This document shows, piece by piece, positions 3-7,208 of a stretch of DNA of 7,208 nt (position 1 is its first letter; each line of letters starts with the position of its first letter). The position numbers and the translations under genes were made by a program. The DNA lies in NCBI GenBank assembly GCA_016928495.1, contig JAFGKQ010000015.1, positions 1 through 7,208 of the forward strand. The letters run 5' to 3'. The notes beneath the pieces were generated by a model, which was given only the letters and a program-made list of their open reading frames with translations, had not been told where the DNA came from and searched no databases. The stretch comes from Candidatus Fermentibacterales bacterium (GTDB taxonomy: Bacteria; Fermentibacterota; Fermentibacteria; Fermentibacterales; JAFGKQ01).

Positions 3-1409
3 ACCTTCCCTGTGGAGCCATCCGGGGAGCTGCCGGAGCCCGGGCCCCCTGCCGGGGCACTGGACGCGCAGCCGGTCCTCGAGGAACAGCCGGAGCCCCC
101 ACCTCCCATCGAGGAGGACGAGGACCTCGATCTCCTGCTGCCGGAGGGAGAAGAGGAGGACGAAGAGCAGGCGGAGCCGGAGCAGGAAACCCGACGCCCC
201 GAGCCCCGGCCATCGCTCGAGTCGCGGCCTTCGCTCCGGCCCGAGCCCCGGGTCTCGAGGCCCGGTCCCTCGTCAGATGTCCTCGAGGCTCTCGTGCAGC
301 GGGAGCCCGCTCCGGTTTCCGAAGAGGATGCGTTCGTCCCCTCGGGCAGGATGATCCGCCTCTTCGACTATTCGACCTGCGCCGGTTGAGCCAGCAAGGT
401 CAGCTCTGCCAGGCTGGCGGGGCTTCTCAGAGAGATAGATCTACCGGGGTCGGAGAACCTGATAGTGAGCATCGAGACGATGGACGATGCCGGCGTCTAC
501 AGGCTGGACGACGAGTCTGCCCTCGTGCAGACCGTGGATTTCTTCCCGCCCGTGGTGGACGATGCGCTGGCCTACGGCAGGATCGCCGCCGCCAACTGCC
601 TCTCGGATATCTGGGCGATGGGAGCCAAGCCCCTCACAGCCATGAACCTGCTCTGCTATCCCAGCTCCCAGATCCCGGAAGAGGTCGTGGCGGACATCCT
701 CAGGGGCGGAATAGAGAAGCTCCGCGAGGCCGGAGTATGCCTTCTCGGAGGCCACACCGCCGAGCAGAAGGAGATCCTCTTCGGAATGAGCGTGACGGGG
801 GTGATGGACCCGGCCAGGGCGCTGACCAATGCGTCGGCCAGACCGGGGGACAAGCTCATCCTCACCAAGCCGCTGGGATCGGGGGTGCTCTCGACCGCCC
901 TGAGGGCGGACCGGGTCTCCCCGGACGACTACCAGACCCTCGTGAAGAGCCTGGAGCGTCTCAACCTCTATGCCTCCCGGGCGGCGACCGCGTTCGATGT
1001 CAGCGCCATGACCGACATCACCGGCTACGGGCTGATGGGGCACAGCTTGCCGATGGCGCGGAATGCGGGAGTCAGCATGGTCTTCTGGGCGGCCGCACTC
1101 CCCCTGCTCCCCGGCGCGGCCGATCTGGCCGCCGAGTTCATGCCCGGCGGCTCCGTTCTCAACAGGCAGCAGACCGAGCCGTTCTGCTACGTCGACGATC
1201 TGGTCGACCAGGCCGTTGCCGACCTGGCCTTCGATGCACAGACATCGGGAGGCCTGCTCTTCGCCGTCAGGCCGGATCAGGCGGAAGAGGCCCTCGCGGC
1301 TGTGGTGGAGGCAGGTGACGTCAGCGCGGCGATAGTCGGAGAGGTCTTCAGCCTTCCTGAAGCTGCAAGCGCTCAGACCGCCCATCCTCTGCTCTCGCTC
1401 ATCCCCTGA
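3..1409 (+). CDS. selD: Selenide, water dikinase (SelD copy 1), Sec-containing, with N-terminal extension; 5' partial
   Basis: Makes selenophosphate from selenide and ATP, the selenium donor for Sec-tRNA(Sec) synthesis (and selenouridine where present); cytoplasmic. Seen: an open frame from base 3, interrupted only by TGA at 387-389, continues in the same frame to TGA 1407-1409. The TGA lies exactly at the catalytic Cys/Sec of SelD: IRLFDYSTCAG-Sec-ASK, with the conserved Lys three residues later. Downstream are SelD hallmarks: DDAGVYR (from 483), TVDFF, AANCLSDIWAMG, LLGGHT, MTDITGYGLMGH and DAQTSGGLL. From ATG 351 the protein would be 352 residues, the usual SelD length. However, the residues just before it (VPSGR) match copy 2 (VPTGR), ATG 351 has no well-placed Shine-Dalgarno, and the frame runs upstream to the window edge. 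A longer fused protein is therefore favoured. The extension (about 3-335) is Pro/Glu rich: an acidic patch (EEDEDLDLLLPEGEEEDEE), then Arg-Pro-Glu pseudo-repeats, probably a disordered tether. GTG 12 is the first in-frame start candidate. Not a pseudogene: the frame and all active-site motifs are intact. Confidence 0.9.
387..389 (+). other. In-frame UGA read as selenocysteine, SelD copy 1
   Basis: The codon sits in tgc gcc ggt TGA gcc agc aag (C-A-G-Sec-A-S-K), aligned with Cys17 of E. coli SelD (AGCGCK), a position occupied by Sec in many SelD proteins. SelD sequence is conserved on both sides of it in one frame. UGA also terminates this same gene at 1407-1409, so readthrough must be site-specific. 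The alternative is translation restarting at ATG 465 or 480, which would lose the catalytic loop. Confidence 0.88.
402..424 (+). promoter_or_regulatory. Candidate bacterial SECIS hairpin, SelD copy 1
   Basis: AGCTCTGCCA (402-411) pairs with TGGCGGGGCT (415-424) as ten continuous pairs, two of them G-U, closed by the triloop GGC at 412-414. The loop lies 23-25 bases after the UGA. Bacterial SECIS elements are stem-loops inside the coding region shortly after the UGA, with guanine in the apical loop, and they recruit SelB with Sec-tRNA. The same loop, 3' arm and spacing recur in copy 2. A competing 6-bp stem (390-395 with 413-418) could also form. Folding was judged by eye. Confidence 0.62.
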
Positions 1410-1428
1410 TTCCTGATCGCGAAAGCAG

Positions 1429-1444
1429 AGCCCGCGGCCGGGCT
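1429..1444 (+). terminator. GC-rich intergenic hairpin (possible weak terminator)
   Basis: AGCCCG (1429-1434) and CGGGCT (1439-1444) form a perfect 6-bp stem around a CGGC loop, 20 bases after the stop of selD copy 1. No T-run follows, so it is not a standard Rho-independent terminator. It could act as a Rho-type end, a pause site or a 3'-end stabiliser. Confidence 0.3.
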
Positions 1445-1452
1445 GCGGGGGA

Positions 1453-1483
1453 CTGACGCCCCGGTGTAGCACCCGGCTATAAT
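1453..1483 (+). promoter_or_regulatory. Candidate sigma70-type promoter for selD copy 2
   Basis: A perfect TATAAT at 1478-1483 stands out in GC-rich sequence. The best -35 match is CTGACG at 1453-1458 (four of six against TTGACA), with a long 19-bp spacer. It lies 47 bases before the TTG start of selD copy 2 and follows the hairpin at 1429-1444. This suggests copy 2 can be transcribed separately from copy 1. The weak -35 and long spacer limit confidence. Confidence 0.4.
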
Positions 1484-1520
1484 GCCTGCTGACCCTGGCA
1501 AGACACTGCCACCGGAGAAC

Positions 1521-1525
1521 AGGAG
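1521..1525 (+). promoter_or_regulatory. Ribosome binding site deciding the TTG start of selD copy 2
   Basis: AGGAG lies five bases before TTG 1531. No ATG or GTG is in frame in the preceding stretch back to the promoter candidate. The later in-frame candidates (GTG 1552, GTG 1708, ATG 1732) lack an equally good site. This supports translation of the cysteine-rich domain as part of the SelD protein. Confidence 0.6.
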
Positions 1526-1530
1526 CGCTC

Positions 1531-2772
1531 TTGAGCAGACCCCGGCTCTATGTGGGCCGTGATTGCCCCTGCCCCAGCGACTGCACCAGGCGCACGAAGT
1601 GCAAGGAGTGCATAGCTTTCCACAGGAAGAGGGGCGAGATGACCTACTGCGAGTACAGAGCGGACCCCGACAGCTCGAGGACACACCTCGGCCGGCCCCA
1701 GGACTCGGTGCCCACCGGGCGTCAGATCCGCATGCTCGAGTATGCCCCCTGTGCCGGTTGAGCAGGCAAGCTCAACCCCACCAGGCTGGCGGGGATGATG
1801 GACAGACTCCCCTCGACGGAGACACCGGATGTCGTCGTCGGCATCAGGGAAATGGACGACGCCGGAGTCTACCGGGTCTCGGACGGGCTCTCGCTCGTTC
1901 AGACCGTGGACTTCTTCTACCCGCCGCTGAACGATCCCGCGGGATGCGGACGCGTCGTGGCCGCCAACTGCCTTTCCGACGTCTGGGCCATGGGCGCCAG
2001 GCCGATCACTGCGATGAACATCCTGGCCTACCCCGCCGGGAGGATACCCCCCGAAGCCATCGAGGCCATGCTTGCCGGTGCCTGCGAGAAGCTCCGCGAG
2101 GCCGGAGTGGCGCTGCTCGGCGGACACACCCTCGAACAGGAGGAGCTGGTCTACGGTCTCAGCGTTACCGGGCTGGCCTCTGCCGACGGTCTCTTCAGGA
2201 ACGAGGGGGCAAGGCCGGGAGACCTGCTCATCCTGACCAAGCCGATCGGTACCGGGGTATACTGCAACGCCCTCCAGAAGGATACTCTCACACCCGCGCA
2301 GTACGAAGCCTTCGCTGGATCTATGGAGCGCTTGAACATGTATGCAGCCGATGCGCTGCGCGGCTCTCATCCTCACTGCGTGACCGATGTTACGGGCTTC
2401 GGCCTTCTCGGACACGCGCTTCCGATGGCCCGAGGCTCCGGCCTGGTCTTCAGGTTCGAGGCATCGAAGGTGCCGCTGCTGCCCGATGCGCTAGAGATGC
2501 TCCGGGAGTTCTCCTCTAAAGGGGTCTGCAAGTGCAGGGACCTGGTCGATCCGCACCTCGAGATCGGGAAGCACGTGGACGAGCGCTACGTTACCGCCTT
2601 CTCGGAGTCGCAGACTTCCGGAGGGCTTCTCGCCGCGGTCGATCCCGGCATCGCGCAGGATGCTCTTCGAGCTGTGAGGCACGCCGGAGACCAGTCGGCG
2701 GAGATCGTCGGCAGCGTCGTCGAAAGGCCGCCGGGATTGTCCGACGAGGTCTACCTCGAGATAGAGCCCTGA
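1531..2772 (+). CDS. selD: Selenide, water dikinase (SelD copy 2), Sec-containing, with N-terminal cysteine-rich domain
   Basis: Second selenophosphate synthetase, 413 residues counting Sec77 (TGA 1759-1761). Seen: residues 1-45 hold a Cys-rich module with C12, C14, C18, C24, C27, H31 and C40. The pattern is CxCx3Cx5CxxCx3H followed by RGEMTYC, probably a Zn or other metal site, and resembling from memory small proteins of the DUF6485 type. A short linker leads to VPTGRQIRMLEYAPCAG-Sec-AGK. SelD motifs follow: MDDAGVYR, TVDFF, AANCLSDVWAMGA, LLGGHT, VTDVTGFGLLGH and SQTSGGLL. By eye about half the residues match copy 1. Differences: the PGGSVLN segment of copy 1 (PGGTERN in E. coli) is replaced by a KGVCKCRD segment, and the Asp before QTSGG is Glu here. 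TTG 1531 is chosen for its AGGAG site. The gene is 121 bases after copy 1 and 7 bases before the peptidase gene. The N-terminal domain could sense or handle metal or selenium, but that is a guess. Confidence 0.9.
1756..1777 (+). other. Hairpin enclosing the Sec UGA of SelD copy 2
   Basis: GGTTGAGC (1756-1763) and GCTCAACC (1770-1777) are perfect 8-base complements around the loop AGGCAA. The UGA codon lies within the 5' arm. It shares only bases 1776-1777 with the SECIS candidate, so the two could alternate or stack. Copy 1 has no equivalent: only four of these pairs remain (388-391 with 403-406). No function is known to me. Confidence 0.4.
1759..1761 (+). other. In-frame UGA read as selenocysteine, SelD copy 2
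   Basis: Context tgt gcc ggt TGA gca ggc aag encodes C-A-G-Sec-A-G-K. It is nearly identical to copy 1 around the UGA and sits at the same catalytic position. The frame continues without a stop to 2772. Restart at ATG 1795 would remove the active-site loop. Confidence 0.88.
1776..1794 (+). promoter_or_regulatory. Candidate bacterial SECIS hairpin, SelD copy 2
   Basis: CCCC (1776-1779) pairs with GGGG (1791-1794). After an A-C mismatch, CCA (1781-1783) pairs with TGG (1787-1789) around the triloop GGC (1784-1786). The loop is 23-25 bases after the UGA, exactly as in copy 1. The 14 bases CCAGGCTGGCGGGG are identical in both copies. Two U-G pairs of copy 1 are C-G here, a half-compensatory change that keeps the stem. 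Confidence 0.58.
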
Positions 2773-2779
2773 TCCGGGA

Positions 2780-5626
2780 GTGAGGATCATGTGGGCATTG
2801 CTGCTCGCCATCTTCCTGTCGGCTCCCGCATCCGCCGGTGCTCCCGGTCACCCCGGCCCTGAGTGCACCGCGGACTACGAGTTGGACGTCCGGCTGGAGC
2901 CGGACAGCTCCCTTGTCTCGGGAAGAGTGACCATTCTCTTCACCAACGGCGTCTCGACCCTCGTGGACACGCTCTGGCTGCACCTCTACCCGAATGCCTA
3001 CAGGGACGAGACCACGGCTTTCGGACGTGACATGGATGCCAGGGCCTCCTACTCCTTCCGGGCCTCACCGCCGGACGAGAAGGGCTTCATCCTGCTCAGG
3101 GACTGGACCGCCGACGGCCAGCCGGTGGAGATGACAGTCGACGAGACACTGGCATTCACCCTTCTGCCCCAGCCGCTCCTGGAGGGCGACAGCGTGGAGC
3201 TGGCAGGGGAGTTCACGGTTCACGTCCCGGAGGTCTGGAGCAGGATGGGAAGGGTCGGCGAGAGCTATGCCATGACCCAGTGGTACCCCAAGGTCTGTGT
3301 CCTCGATGAGAGGGGCTGGCACCTATCCAGATACCGCGCCGAGGGCGAGTTCTATGGTGACTTCGGTCAGTACACCGTGAGGATCGAGCTTCCCGTGGAC
3401 TACGTGGTCGCCGCCACAGGGCGCTGCGACTCCGTCCTGCTGTCCCCCGACTCCGCCACCAGAATCGAGACCTGGGCCGCCGGCCCCGTTCATGACTTCG
3501 CCTGGATGGCCGGACCGGATGCTACGGTCAGGGACCACCTGTTCGTCTATCCCGACAGCATGGGAGGCTGCTCCATAAGCGTCCACCTGGTGCTGCTGGA
3601 CGACTCGCCCGACTACTGGAGCGAGGTCCCCGCGATAGTCGACTCCACGCTGCTCTACTACGGGCAGTGGTACGCTCCCTATCCATACGGGGATCTCTGG
3701 GTGGCCGACTGCAGCATGATAGGTTTCGCGGGCATGGAGTACCCGCAGCTCGTGCAGGTCGGGAGAGGCGTGCCGTTCCTCAGAGTCCTCGAGATGGTCC
3801 TGATGCACGAGATAGGCCATCAGTGGTTCTACGGCATGCTGGCCAACGACGAGGTGGATGAGGCCTGGCTGGACGAGGGCATGAACACCTTCAGCGAGCT
3901 GAGGTACTTCGAGAGGAAGTACGGCCCCGAAGGCAACCTGACCTCGACGCCCTCCTGGCTGGCGGAGCTCAGCGATACCGAGCAGACGGTCATGGTCTAC
4001 TCGGGGAGTGCGGTCGAAGGCGAGTCCAGGCCAGTCCTGAGCACTGCGACCGATGCGGGGGACGGCAGCTATTCGACCGGCGCCACCTACTACTCGAAGC
4101 CGGCGCTCTTCCTGAGGCTGCTGCAGCAGCAGGCGGGCCCGGAGCTCTTCGACCTGGCGATGAGGCTCTACTTCGAGAGGTTCACCTTCCATCACCCTCA
4201 CAGCGACGACTTCCAGGCCATCCTCGAGGAGGTTTCTGGAAGGTCCTGGCAGGAGGAGTTCGATTTCTGGCTGCGGGGCAGGTCGAGCATAGACGTGCTC
4301 GTCAGCGACCTGCGGGCCCTTCCGGGGGATTCCACGATGGTTGTCGTGCGCTGCGATGATCCGCTGCCTCACGAGCTCTCGGCGGATCTGCTGCTGACCG
4401 GTTCCCGGGGCGACTCACTGCTGATGAGAGCAACGCTGTCGCCGGAGCAACCCCGGGACACCCTGGTGGTCGAGGGAGCCTGGGCAAGGGCGACCTTCGA
4501 TCCCTTCTACAGGGTGCCGGACAGGGTGCCGCTGAACAACTCGCGGCCCTTCGAGCACGAGATCAGGCCTCTTCTCCTGCCCATTCCCCGACCGAGAGTC
4601 CTGAGCACCTACATCATCGCTCTGCCTCTCTGGTCCGGAAGCAGCCTCAGACTCGGCGCTATGGCCACCTCCTGTGCCATGCCCGTGTCCATGGGAGGCT
4701 CCGGTTCCTGGTCGGGCTTCGCCTCCGCCCCTCTGGAGGATGCATCCGAGCGGGGCTACTGGTCGCTTCAGTCGGTCGTCGCCGTATCGAGGTCGAGCCG
4801 ACATCTCCTCCGCACCCGCGCACTGGCCACGAGCTGCAACGGGATGCAGGCTCTCCGCTTCGGCCTTGATGTCGATCGGACCGGCGAGCTCAGGCGGAGT
4901 CCCCGACTGCGTGGATCGCTGTCCCTGGGATACCTCAGGGTCAGGCCATGGACCTCCTACGGCGAAGAGGACGTGGAGCCAGGCGACGGGTTCGAGCTGG
5001 GTCTCGGCATCGAGCTTAGCGATCCCGGATACTCCATCTGGTGGAACGGAGGGGCCCGCTTCACCGCATCGCCGGGCTGGAGCGGCCGAGCAGCCTACTC
5101 CAGAACGGAGGCGGAGATCGGCCTGGCCACCAGGGTCGGGCAGAGGTACCTGCTGCACACGAGGCTCTACGCAGGCGGCGTTTGCGGCGAGGCGCCCGTT
5201 CAGGCTCTCCTCAGGCCGGGAGGAGGCCTCATAGCCGAGGCCGTGGAGGACATGATGCTCCCGGTCAGGGGCTGCCTCTCCACCTCGGGGAACTACTACA
5301 TCAGGTCCGGTCCGGCTCTGCCGGGATACGGCGAGTCAGGGGAGAGGTTCCGTATCGGGGCAGCCCTCGAGCAGAGGCTCTTCGTGCCGGCTGAGCTTCC
5401 GCTTGGCGGTGATGCCTTCCTGTTCGGGGGGATCGGCCTGCTCGGGGACGACCTTCATACCGCACTGAGCACCGAAGGTCTGCTTGCCGACGCCGGAGCG
5501 GGTCTTCGGCTGCTCTTCCTCGAGGGGCTCTTCCCGTTCTGGGTATCCGACCCAGCTTCGGGAGAGGACCAGCTCGCGTTCCGCTGGCGCGTGAGGTTCC
5601 GTCCGGAAGGCCTTCAGCTCTTCTAG
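2780..5626 (+). CDS. Secreted M1-family zinc metallopeptidase with C-terminal outer-membrane-barrel-like region
   Basis: Likely an exported aminopeptidase-like enzyme of 948 residues. Seen: signal peptide (residues 1-19, MRIMWALLLAIFLSAPASA, AxA-type cleavage), then an M1-like N-terminal beta domain (about 25-230). The zinc motif is HEIGH (343-347) with the distal ligand Glu366 in WLDEG, giving HExxH-x18-E. AGMEYP (317-322) stands where M1 enzymes have GAMEN, and Tyr438 in TYYSKPALF fits the M1 catalytic Tyr. After a beta-rich linker, about 590-948 alternates polar and hydrophobic residues (SLSLGYLRVRP, RFRIGAALEQRLF, LAFRWRVRF) and ends in Phe, as outer-membrane barrels do. I infer anchoring in the outer membrane. 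The substitution of Asn by Tyr in GAMEN may alter N-terminal recognition. Start: GTG 2780 keeps Arg2 in the signal peptide, but ATG 2789 has the better GGGAG spacing. The short gap suggests cotranscription with selD copy 2. The catalytic assignment is firm; the barrel is inferred from pattern. Confidence 0.88.
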   Translation: MRIMWALLLAIFLSAPASAGAPGHPGPECTADYELDVRLEPDSSLVSGRVTILFTNGVSTLVDTLWLHLYPNAYRDETTAFGRDMDARASYSFRASPPDEKGFILLRDWTADGQPVEMTVDETLAFTLLPQPLLEGDSVELAGEFTVHVPEVWSRMGRVGESYAMTQWYPKVCVLDERGWHLSRYRAEGEFYGDFGQYTVRIELPVDYVVAATGRCDSVLLSPDSATRIETWAAGPVHDFAWMAGPDATVRDHLFVYPDSMGGCSISVHLVLLDDSPDYWSEVPAIVDSTLLYYGQWYAPYPYGDLWVADCSMIGFAGMEYPQLVQVGRGVPFLRVLEMVLMHEIGHQWFYGMLANDEVDEAWLDEGMNTFSELRYFERKYGPEGNLTSTPSWLAELSDTEQTVMVYSGSAVEGESRPVLSTATDAGDGSYSTGATYYSKPALFLRLLQQQAGPELFDLAMRLYFERFTFHHPHSDDFQAILEEVSGRSWQEEFDFWLRGRSSIDVLVSDLRALPGDSTMVVVRCDDPLPHELSADLLLTGSRGDSLLMRATLSPEQPRDTLVVEGAWARATFDPFYRVPDRVPLNNSRPFEHEIRPLLLPIPRPRVLSTYIIALPLWSGSSLRLGAMATSCAMPVSMGGSGSWSGFASAPLEDASERGYWSLQSVVAVSRSSRHLLRTRALATSCNGMQALRFGLDVDRTGELRRSPRLRGSLSLGYLRVRPWTSYGEEDVEPGDGFELGLGIELSDPGYSIWWNGGARFTASPGWSGRAAYSRTEAEIGLATRVGQRYLLHTRLYAGGVCGEAPVQALLRPGGGLIAEAVEDMMLPVRGCLSTSGNYYIRSGPALPGYGESGERFRIGAALEQRLFVPAELPLGGDAFLFGGIGLLGDDLHTALSTEGLLADAGAGLRLLFLEGLFPFWVSDPASGEDQLAFRWRVRFRPEGLQLF

Positions 5627-5672: not shown

Positions 5673-5761
5673 AGAGCCATGGCGAGCCAGACCGGGCCTT
5701 CGTATGGAGGCAGGGCTGAAGTGTGCCCATATTCAGTCCCGCACGGAAAGGGGGGCTAGAC

Positions 5762-6196
5762 ATGCCTGACGAGACCGAGATCCTGAGAAAGGAGCTCGAT
5801 CACTACAGGACCGAACGGGAAAAGGTCAGGAGGATCATCGGACAGATCGGCGGGCAGAGCTCCGCGGGAAGGGACAGGGCGATCAACGCGGTGTTCCTGA
5901 GCGTTGTTCTGGCTGTCTTCCTCTTCGATATCGTCAGGCACATCGCCGGACTGCAGATACCTGCCATACCTCCCGTGCTGACCCTGGAGGTCGCGGTGCT
6001 GCTGGTTTCGCTGAAGATCGTCTGGATGATCCACAGGCAGCAGAAAATAGACCACTTCCAGTTCTGGATGCTCAACTCGATCGAGTTCCAGATGAACGCC
6101 ATGTCCGGGAGGATGAGGGAGATGGAGCAGGCCCTGGAGCGCCGGCCAGGAGGTCAGGCCACAGGCGAGCCCCCGGGGCAGGACCTGCAGAGCTGA
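5762..6196 (+). CDS. Small membrane protein with two helices flanked by coiled-coil segments, function unknown
   Basis: I do not recognise a named family. The 144-residue protein has a charged, heptad-like N-terminal helix (about 4-30). Transmembrane helix 1 is about 41-57 (INAVFLSVVLAVFLF) and helix 2 about 71-90 (PVLTLEVAVLLVSLKIVWMI). A second amphipathic helix (about 92-126) is rich in Gln, Met and Glu, and a Gly/Pro/Gln tail ends the chain. Both soluble helices probably lie on the same side of the membrane, most likely cytoplasmic because basic residues flank the helices (RDR before helix 1, HRQQK after helix 2). This could suit an oligomeric scaffold. The ATG is chosen because GGAAAGGGGGG at 5745-5755 lies six bases upstream; an in-frame GTG at 5723 would add 13 residues but lacks such a site. 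The gene converges on tRNA-Phe, its stop lying only four bases from the tRNA 3' end. Confidence 0.75.
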   Translation: MPDETEILRKELDHYRTEREKVRRIIGQIGGQSSAGRDRAINAVFLSVVLAVFLFDIVRHIAGLQIPAIPPVLTLEVAVLLVSLKIVWMIHRQQKIDHFQFWMLNSIEFQMNAMSGRMREMEQALERRPGGQATGEPPGQDLQS

Positions 6197-6200
6197 GTGG

Positions 6201-6276
<76 letters not shown>

Positions 6277-6290
6277 ACCCTGAGCGGGCC

Positions 6291-6319
6291 AATGTAAACA
6301 CAGTCACACGTAGGGTCAA
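6291..6319 (-). promoter_or_regulatory. Sigma70-type promoter of tRNA-Phe
   Basis: On the minus strand, TTGACC (6319-6314, five of six to consensus) and TACATT (6296-6291, four of six) are separated by exactly 17 bp. The -10 ends 14 bases before the tRNA 5' end, which leaves a leader of about 7-8 nt for RNase P to remove. The -35 overlaps the stop codon of the TIGR02757-family gene, so the tRNA can be transcribed independently of it. Confidence 0.6.
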
Positions 6320-7086
6320 GACGATGCCTGCGTCCGCAGGCCAGCCTCCCTGATCGCGCGCTCCAGGTCCTCCAGACGGGGACCGTCGGGCCGTATTCCA
6401 AGCCTGGTGAGGGCGAAGTCGTATCGCACTGGGTCCTCGGGCGATAGACTCCTGAAGCCCTCGGTTATATCGAGTGCGCACCTCATGTCGGCAGAGCTTC
6501 GGCAGGTGAAGCCGAGGAGCCTTCCCGCCCTGAACATGTGCGTGTCCAGAGGAACCACCAGCATCCCGGGAGAGGCGAACTCCCACCCGCCCGGATCCAC
6601 CTCGTCCCTCCTGATCATCCATCTGAGCATCAGGTTCAGCCTCTTGCAGGCGCTGCCCATGCTGGGGCGCGGCAACAGGTAGCTGCAGGAGAGCCCGGCA
6701 TGGCCCAGGATCGACCCGACCATGCTCTCCAACGCCGGAAGGAGCGTCCTCGACTCTGCGTTGCAGGAGGTCAGGCTCAGCTTCAGGCACTCGCCGAGCG
6801 AGCCGAAGCGGGCGATCACCCCGGCAGCGCCCAGGAGCACCGAGGCGAGCTCCTGTCCCGTGGTGAACCTGTGCCTGAAGGCCGACAGCTCGCGTCTTAG
6901 AGATGCGGGCTCCACCGCCGCAAGGTAGTCCCTCGGAGACGGGCCGAGGACATCGAGAACGGCACGCACGCTAGAGAGTATCTGGGCTACCCTGCCGTAG
7001 GCCAGACAGGAGGCGAGCAGCGCAACGATCTCCCTGTCGCCCGGCTCCGGGTATAGGTAGAGGAACTCCAGGGGATCCGGATGCAC
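6316..7086 (-). CDS. TIGR02757 / DUF2400 family protein
   Basis: A conserved bacterial family without an established function. Seen in the 256 residues from GTG 7084-7086: HPDPLEFLY (2-10), DREIVALLASCLAYGRVAQI (17-36), FRHRFTTG (70-77), GSACKRLNLMLRWMIRRDEV (144-163), LDTHMFRAGRLLGFT (180-194) and SPEDPVRYDFALTRLGI (215-231), all typical of the family. The LDTH segment resembles VDTHVxRxxxRLG of the endonuclease III (HhH-GPD) superfamily, whose Asp is catalytic; a DNA-related role is therefore conceivable but inferred. GTG 7084 is the only standard start in frame before the conserved core. Yet upstream codons encode LLEDLYLALNHRRF, which looks like the normal family N terminus, and the frame is open to the window edge. 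The true start is therefore probably further upstream or non-standard. The gene ends 39 bases before tRNA-Phe on the same strand. Confidence 0.88.
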   Translation of the reverse strand: MHPDPLEFLYLYPEPGDREIVALLASCLAYGRVAQILSSVRAVLDVLGPSPRDYLAAVEPASLRRELSAFRHRFTTGQELASVLLGAAGVIARFGSLGECLKLSLTSCNAESRTLLPALESMVGSILGHAGLSCSYLLPRPSMGSACKRLNLMLRWMIRRDEVDPGGWEFASPGMLVVPLDTHMFRAGRLLGFTCRSSADMRCALDITEGFRSLSPEDPVRYDFALTRLGIRPDGPRLEDLERAIREAGLRTQASS

Positions 7087-7162
7087 GAATCGGCGGTGGT
7101 TCAGGGCGAGATAGAGGTCCTCGAGAAGATCCCCGATGCCGCCGGAGGGTCTGCCGGGGATG

Positions 7163-7208
7163 TCAGTCCTCGCTGGGGCTGAAGTCCTCCTTGCCGGCTC
7201 CGCAAACC
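7163..7208 (-). CDS. 3' end of an unidentified minus-strand gene (partial)
   Basis: One frame of the last 46 bases reads VCGAGKEDFSPSED followed by TGA at 7165-7163. The acidic, Ser-containing ending looks like a natural C terminus, and it would lie just upstream of the TIGR02757-family gene in the same orientation. Only 14 codons are visible, so neither function nor reality is certain. The competing frame (the extended TIGR02757 frame) reads as Arg/Pro/Ala-rich sequence here, more like non-coding translation. Confidence 0.35.
   Translation of the reverse strand, partial: VCGAGKEDFSPSED

Follow-up and report, generated by a model that had tools for sequence, protein, structure and literature searches.

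Selenophosphate synthetases (SelD) that carry selenocysteine (Sec) at the catalytic position are well known (Zhang, 2006) and made up 19% of the SelDs surveyed by Mariotti et al. (2015; PMC4561486). In bacterial proteins of this SPS2 type, Sec occupies a single catalytic position, a Sec insertion sequence (SECIS) element lies just downstream of its codon, and SelA, SelB and tRNA-Sec are encoded in the genome. The same survey describes N-terminal fusions of SelD to NADH-dehydrogenase-like and NifS-like domains, which are Cys-type with one exception, and metazoan SPS1/SPS2 duplications, in which both copies are retained and one of them usually loses Sec or Cys together with selenophosphate activity. 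The window considered here, an entire contig of 7208 bp (JAFGKQ010000015.1) from a metagenome-assembled genome (MAG) of a Candidatus Fermentibacterales bacterium, has the features of the SPS2 type, but it bears two diverged Sec-type selD genes, SelD1 and SelD2, that are adjacent to each other. In contrast to the metazoan duplicates, both predicted proteins keep Sec and the catalytic residues. There is little doubt that the two are genuine Sec-dependent SelDs, and it is very probable that both genes encode working Sec-dependent selenophosphate synthetases and are old paralogues that stand side by side in this lineage alone.

Catalytic UGA codons, SECIS hairpins and Sec decoding machinery

SelD1 (351–1409, forward strand) comprises a selenophosphate synthetase core of 352 codons with TGA as codon 13 (387–389) and a terminal TGA at 1407–1409. 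SelD2 (1531–2772, forward strand) is N-terminally extended, a feature kept in its homologues, and has 413 codons, with TGA as codon 77 (1759–1761) and as the stop (2770–2772). Direct reading of the sequence places a Shine–Dalgarno AGGAG (1521–1525, forward strand) five bases ahead of TTG 1531, which replaces the start near 1700 proposed in an earlier note made from the sequence alone. When TGA is read as U, SelD1 and SelD2 match the TIGR00476 profile over its whole length with 348 and 307 bits, respectively (cut-off 125), and neither frame contains any stop other than the Sec TGA before the terminal TGA. UGA therefore has two meanings within each gene, as the earlier note had recognized along with its catalytic position.

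Alignment of SelD1 and SelD2 to SelD structures, including those of E. coli and Aquifex, places U of both proteins on the catalytic Cys17 of E. coli SelD (3U0O; motif GAGC-GCK), with the following Lys kept. The catalytic Asp and the TSGG motifs are present in both, as judged from alignments to 3U0O and 2YYE and from the conserved columns of the SelD alignment. An AlphaFold model of SelD2 has the SelD fold and matches Aquifex and E. coli SelD, with low confidence for the N-terminal domain. The active-site motif of both proteins is C-A-G-U-A-(S/G)-K, that is, CxxU without a second Cys after U; this differs from the described Sec-type SelDs in that the second Cys of GCGCK is replaced by Ser or Gly. 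The catalytic codon is TGA in every extracted SelD gene but two, so its position is not due to chance. The two exceptions, in G003 and G004, have TGC and are each accompanied by a Sec-type copy, and Cys occupies the equivalent position in these two Cys-type proteins and in E. coli SelD.

A bacterial SECIS hairpin is predicted by folding and covariation just 3′ of each UGA. That of SelD1 (402–424, forward strand) has a 10 bp stem and the loop GGC at 412–414, and that of SelD2 (1776–1794, forward strand) pairs over eight positions with one A-C mismatch and also has the loop GGC; among homologues, the apical loop at this site is GGC or GGU. Across 43 sequences (42 from Fermentibacterota and one from a Planctomycetota-labelled MAG), paired cells amount to 92.7% as against 74.9% in shuffles, double-change cells number 54 as against 20 in shuffles and at most 7 in slid controls, and the covariation score is 0.40 as against 0.09 in shuffles. 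An Rfam scan of the window matched tRNA-Phe alone and did not match a SECIS element.

The source genome, G000, is 81% complete, with 2.3 Mb spread over 337 contigs, and is the sole member of its family in a comparison set of 42 Fermentibacterota genomes. It encodes a tRNA-Sec (74 bits) whose anticodon is UCA, as well as SelB (306 bits) and, adjoining SelB, the C-terminal part of SelA, which is cut by the contig end; SelA occurs in 24 of 24 good-quality genomes of the phylum. The earlier note had taken both genes to be selenoprotein genes, neither of them Cys-type, and had pointed to selA, selB and selC as the check: this view agrees with the machinery found, and no Cys-type SelD was found in this genome of about 81% completeness. 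SelB and Sec-tRNA would read UGA as Sec, each SelD would make selenophosphate from selenide and ATP, and SelA would use this selenophosphate to make the Sec-tRNA, from which Sec would return to both SelDs and to at least one secreted thioredoxin-like selenoprotein, described below.

N-terminal regions of SelD2 and SelD1

The SECIS elements and the N-terminal regions of both genes are absent from the earlier note. The N-terminal 60 or so residues of SelD2 are conserved among relatives, which include Candidatus Aegiribacteria, Sabulitectum and Fermentibacter, and contain a Cys-rich domain (1564–1650, forward strand) with the pattern C-x-C-x3-C-x5-C-x2-C-x3-H-x8-C. Its six Cys and one His are invariant in an alignment of 17 SelDs, and the more general pattern C-x-C-x(3-4)-C-x5-C-x2-C-x3-H-x8-C opens nearly all SelDs of the phylum, whether of the A, B or f2 type (A and B being the two paralogues distinguished below). 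When the SelD N-terminal domain is compared by hhalign with free-standing DUF6485 (PF20095) proteins encoded in the same genomes, the result is 96.9% with an E value of 1.7e-10, and the ligand spacing is the same in both except that the gap from the second Cys to the third differs by one residue. DUF6485 proteins are small and free-standing, whereas the SelD version is fused, and its single sequences fall below the PF20095 cut-off, so that Pfam searches with individual SelD N-termini give no DUF6485 match. The weak Pfam matches of this domain to Integrin_B_tail and Somatomedin_B were rejected as spurious, and profile–profile comparison was needed instead.

Like the NADH-dehydrogenase-like and NifS-like fusions, this domain lies N-terminal to SelD, but here a small domain with six Cys and one His is joined to a SelD that is Sec-type phylum-wide; Pfam and NCBIfam scans of SelD2 found neither an NADH-dehydrogenase-like nor a NifS-like domain. 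As far as the literature searched shows, the DUF6485-like fusion is new. A probable role of the domain is metal binding or the delivery of selenium to the active site.

SelD1 has no DUF6485-like domain adjoining its core and instead follows a Pro/Glu-rich frame (3–350, forward strand), which is in frame with it, contains no in-frame stop and is open from the contig edge. This frame spans at least 116 codons before it runs off the contig, has the best coding score of the frames there, with GC contents of 0.86/0.50/0.80 at the three codon positions, and has no match in Pfam or NCBIfam. It probably belongs to SelD1, as an N-terminal extension or a fused partner that the contig end truncates, and may have linked SelD1 to an N-terminal domain now missing from the window; because the frame is open from base 3, position 351 may not be the start of SelD1.

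Origin of the pair and alternative explanations

The gene order in the window is SelD1, SelD2, an M1-type peptidase (2780–5626), a small membrane protein (5723–6196, forward strand), whose homologue was found by tblastn downstream of selD in five relatives, tRNA-Phe(GAA) (6201–6276, reverse strand) and a DUF2400/TIGR02757 gene (6316–7206, reverse strand), identified by profile match. A selD gene together with tRNA-Phe and with DUF2400, the small membrane protein or both recurs in g7 and g8, where the selD is A-type, and in the f2 family, where it is the only Sec-type SelD. In the window, such a block encloses SelD2 and the peptidase, with SelD1 on the left and the small protein, tRNA-Phe and DUF2400 on the right. 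Because the A/f2-type locus recurs around it, SelD1 is placed by its neighbourhood better than by its sequence. A promoter scan of bases 1–2900 found no sigma-70 site above threshold. A perfect TATAAT lies between the two genes at 1478–1483 without an acceptable −35 box, and SelD2 may have its own promoter there.

As judged from sequence, SelD1 and SelD2 are old paralogues and not a fresh tandem copy. The adjacency of the genes, their common orientation and their occurrence side by side in G000 only would suit the view that a single Sec-type selD was duplicated in tandem recently, within this lineage, but the two proteins are only 49% identical over 339 residues, and SelD2 falls with 26 other B-type SelDs from other genera in a clade of 27 that excludes SelD1 (support 100/100). 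In addition, a sister pair of SelD1 and SelD2 is rejected (approximately unbiased test, p-AU 0.033), although both window genes are long branches and this value calls for caution; SelD1 keeps the PGGSxxN loop of the A and f2 types, whereas SelD2 has the B-type KGVCKC; and the SelD1 locus is syntenic with that of relatives, which together make such a duplication very unlikely. Another idea is that two selD loci, separate in the cell, were joined into a chimera during assembly. The fragmentation of this MAG and the separation of A and B in other genomes speak for it, but a chimera would need two joins, because parts of the A-type locus flank SelD2 and the peptidase on both sides, and we regard it as very unlikely. 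Least credible is that UGA is a true stop and that the genes are pseudogenes or yield short peptides and internal-start fragments: standard annotation would give this result, and internal start codons are available at 465 and 1795, but it is at odds with the near-invariant TGA at one codon, the Cys of Cys-type homologues, the SECIS covariation, the Sec machinery of the genome and the lack of other stops in both frames.

A further alternative holds that one copy, most likely SelD2, does not make selenophosphate for Sec and has a selenium-binding, regulatory or other kinase-like role. The B types have lost the PGG(S/T)xxN loop, gained KGVCKC and carry the extra Cys-rich domain. SelU above cut-off is absent from all 42 genomes of the phylum, which is also in keeping with another role for SelD2; for the same reason, a second selenium branch of the SelU sort, the selenouridine trait, was rejected as the reason for two SelDs. 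However, Sec, Lys, Asp and the TSGG motifs are all retained in B, a B-type selD lies about 700 bp from tRNA-Sec in G041, and in many g5 genomes B is the only SelD and SelA is present, which means that in these genomes the selenophosphate has to come from B. A role of SelD2 apart from Sec synthesis is thus improbable.

Several points nevertheless weigh against the view that both genes are working, Sec-dependent old paralogues. For SelD1, a grouping with A and f2 (p-AU 0.186) and one with the B group (p-AU 0.561) are both compatible with the tree. The folding of the two window hairpins stands out only moderately from that of synonymously recoded sequences (z about −1.9 and −0.9), and the SECIS assignment accordingly relies on the comparative evidence of covariation. 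At about 81% completeness, a Cys-type SelD could be missing from the assembly. Sec insertion in both proteins is predicted from the genes, and equal activity of SelD2 is not assured because B types lack the PGG(S/T)xxN loop. The preferred reading remains that of two Sec-dependent paralogues, with SelD1 at the locus of the relatives' A/f2-type SelD and SelD2 as the B paralogue, which lies elsewhere in other genomes; the two would be neighbours solely in this lineage either because B was relocated or because an ancestral order was kept.

Selenium activation and use across Fermentibacterota

SelD above cut-off occurs in 35 of the 42 genomes and is solely Sec-type in 33 of these 35. Ten of the 42 genomes have two Sec-type SelDs: paralogues A and B together in eight (G000, G028, G029 and G032–G036), and B with a third, YedF-linked type in two (G008 and G021). 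Two SelDs share a contig in G000 only; in G028, for example, A and B are on different contigs of 140 kb, each 30 kb from the end. The earlier note's view that a tandem Sec-type pair is unusual thus applies to the side-by-side arrangement, which is unique in this set, but not to the possession of two Sec-type SelDs or of this same pair. The literature searched contained no relevant report on bacteria with two selD genes, in tandem or otherwise, or on selenium in Fermentibacterota.

The third Sec-type SelD (L082, L084 and L089, in G008, G013 and G021) is distant, has the motif AVGUAAKMG or SVGUAAKMG, adjoins a YedF-like gene and is without the Cys-rich N-terminal domain. The two Cys-type SelDs, L064 (G003) and L091 (G004), accompany Sec-type ones; the reading frame of L091 is broken into two, and its Cys-rich N-terminal stretch, GHCVCDPRKHCPCPLFKEKNICTC, is a different one. 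A contig labelled Phycisphaerae (Planctomycetota) MAG24 (L053) encodes a Sec SelD of the B type that shares the Cys-rich N-terminal domain of the Fermentibacterota proteins, which reflects either transfer between phyla or a mislabelled bin.

Users of Sec other than SelD were found by scanning 1.2 Mb of the G039 genome for read-through frames, which yielded SelD and a secreted thioredoxin-like family with the motif EYFTQTG-U-x-x-C and a tail of the type IX secretion system (T9SS) type. In a search of the phylum, TGA-containing members of this family occurred in most genomes and the Cys form in others; its loci (L178, L193, L210–L229 and more) have Sec in a UxxC motif, a T9SS sorting tail and the SECIS loop GGUC, and the NCBIfam model 'Omp28-related selenoprotein' (Omp28_seleno) matches the family weakly. 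One member (L228; contig C98, minus strand, about 1696–2400), with FEEFTQTG-U-SSC and a hairpin loop GGUC, is a third selenoprotein gene of G000. The selenium activated by SelD in this genome would therefore go to SelD and to one or more exported redox proteins. The closed positive loop proposed in the earlier note is a property of any organism with only Sec-type SelD; it is not special to this one, nor is it closed on SelD alone. Two other candidate consumers found no support: none of the formate dehydrogenase alpha-subunit (Fdh-alpha) matches in the phylum contains TGA, the match in G000 being weak and partial, and the peroxiredoxin of G000 is without TGA.

The G039 genome also contains, on the minus strand of contig C1, two paralogous FG-GAP repeat proteins (L201 and L200), each with an in-frame TGA in the motif YG-U-CTG[CA]TNPQVVDWNNDG and a SECIS-like hairpin, which represent a possible new selenoprotein family. 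A Sortilin/BNR-repeat protein (L157, plus strand, near base 17726) has one in-frame TGA (LEGSG-U-GGVELYK) with a hairpin after it; this TGA could encode Sec or could be a TGG-to-TGA change.

Genomes with A/f2 alone or B alone, together with SelA, indicate that each SelD type can suffice by itself, and where two Sec-type SelDs coexist they would share or divide the work. It is conceivable, though we put it forward only tentatively, that this amounts to a two-enzyme selenium activation in which ancient Sec-dependent paralogues share the work, for example with one fed by a selenium carrier via the DUF6485-like domain and the other basal, and in which DUF6485 is a previously unrecognised selenium or metal relay.

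Nearly all SelD genes of this phylum would be broken at UGA by standard annotation. Through its conserved fusion to SelD, an uncharacterised Cys-rich domain, DUF6485, is tied to selenium metabolism. Selenium activation throughout the phylum appears to rest on Sec-type SelD, often as two old paralogues, so that the supply of selenocysteine would depend on itself twice. The recovery of such a cell from selenium starvation thereby becomes a question open to experiment.

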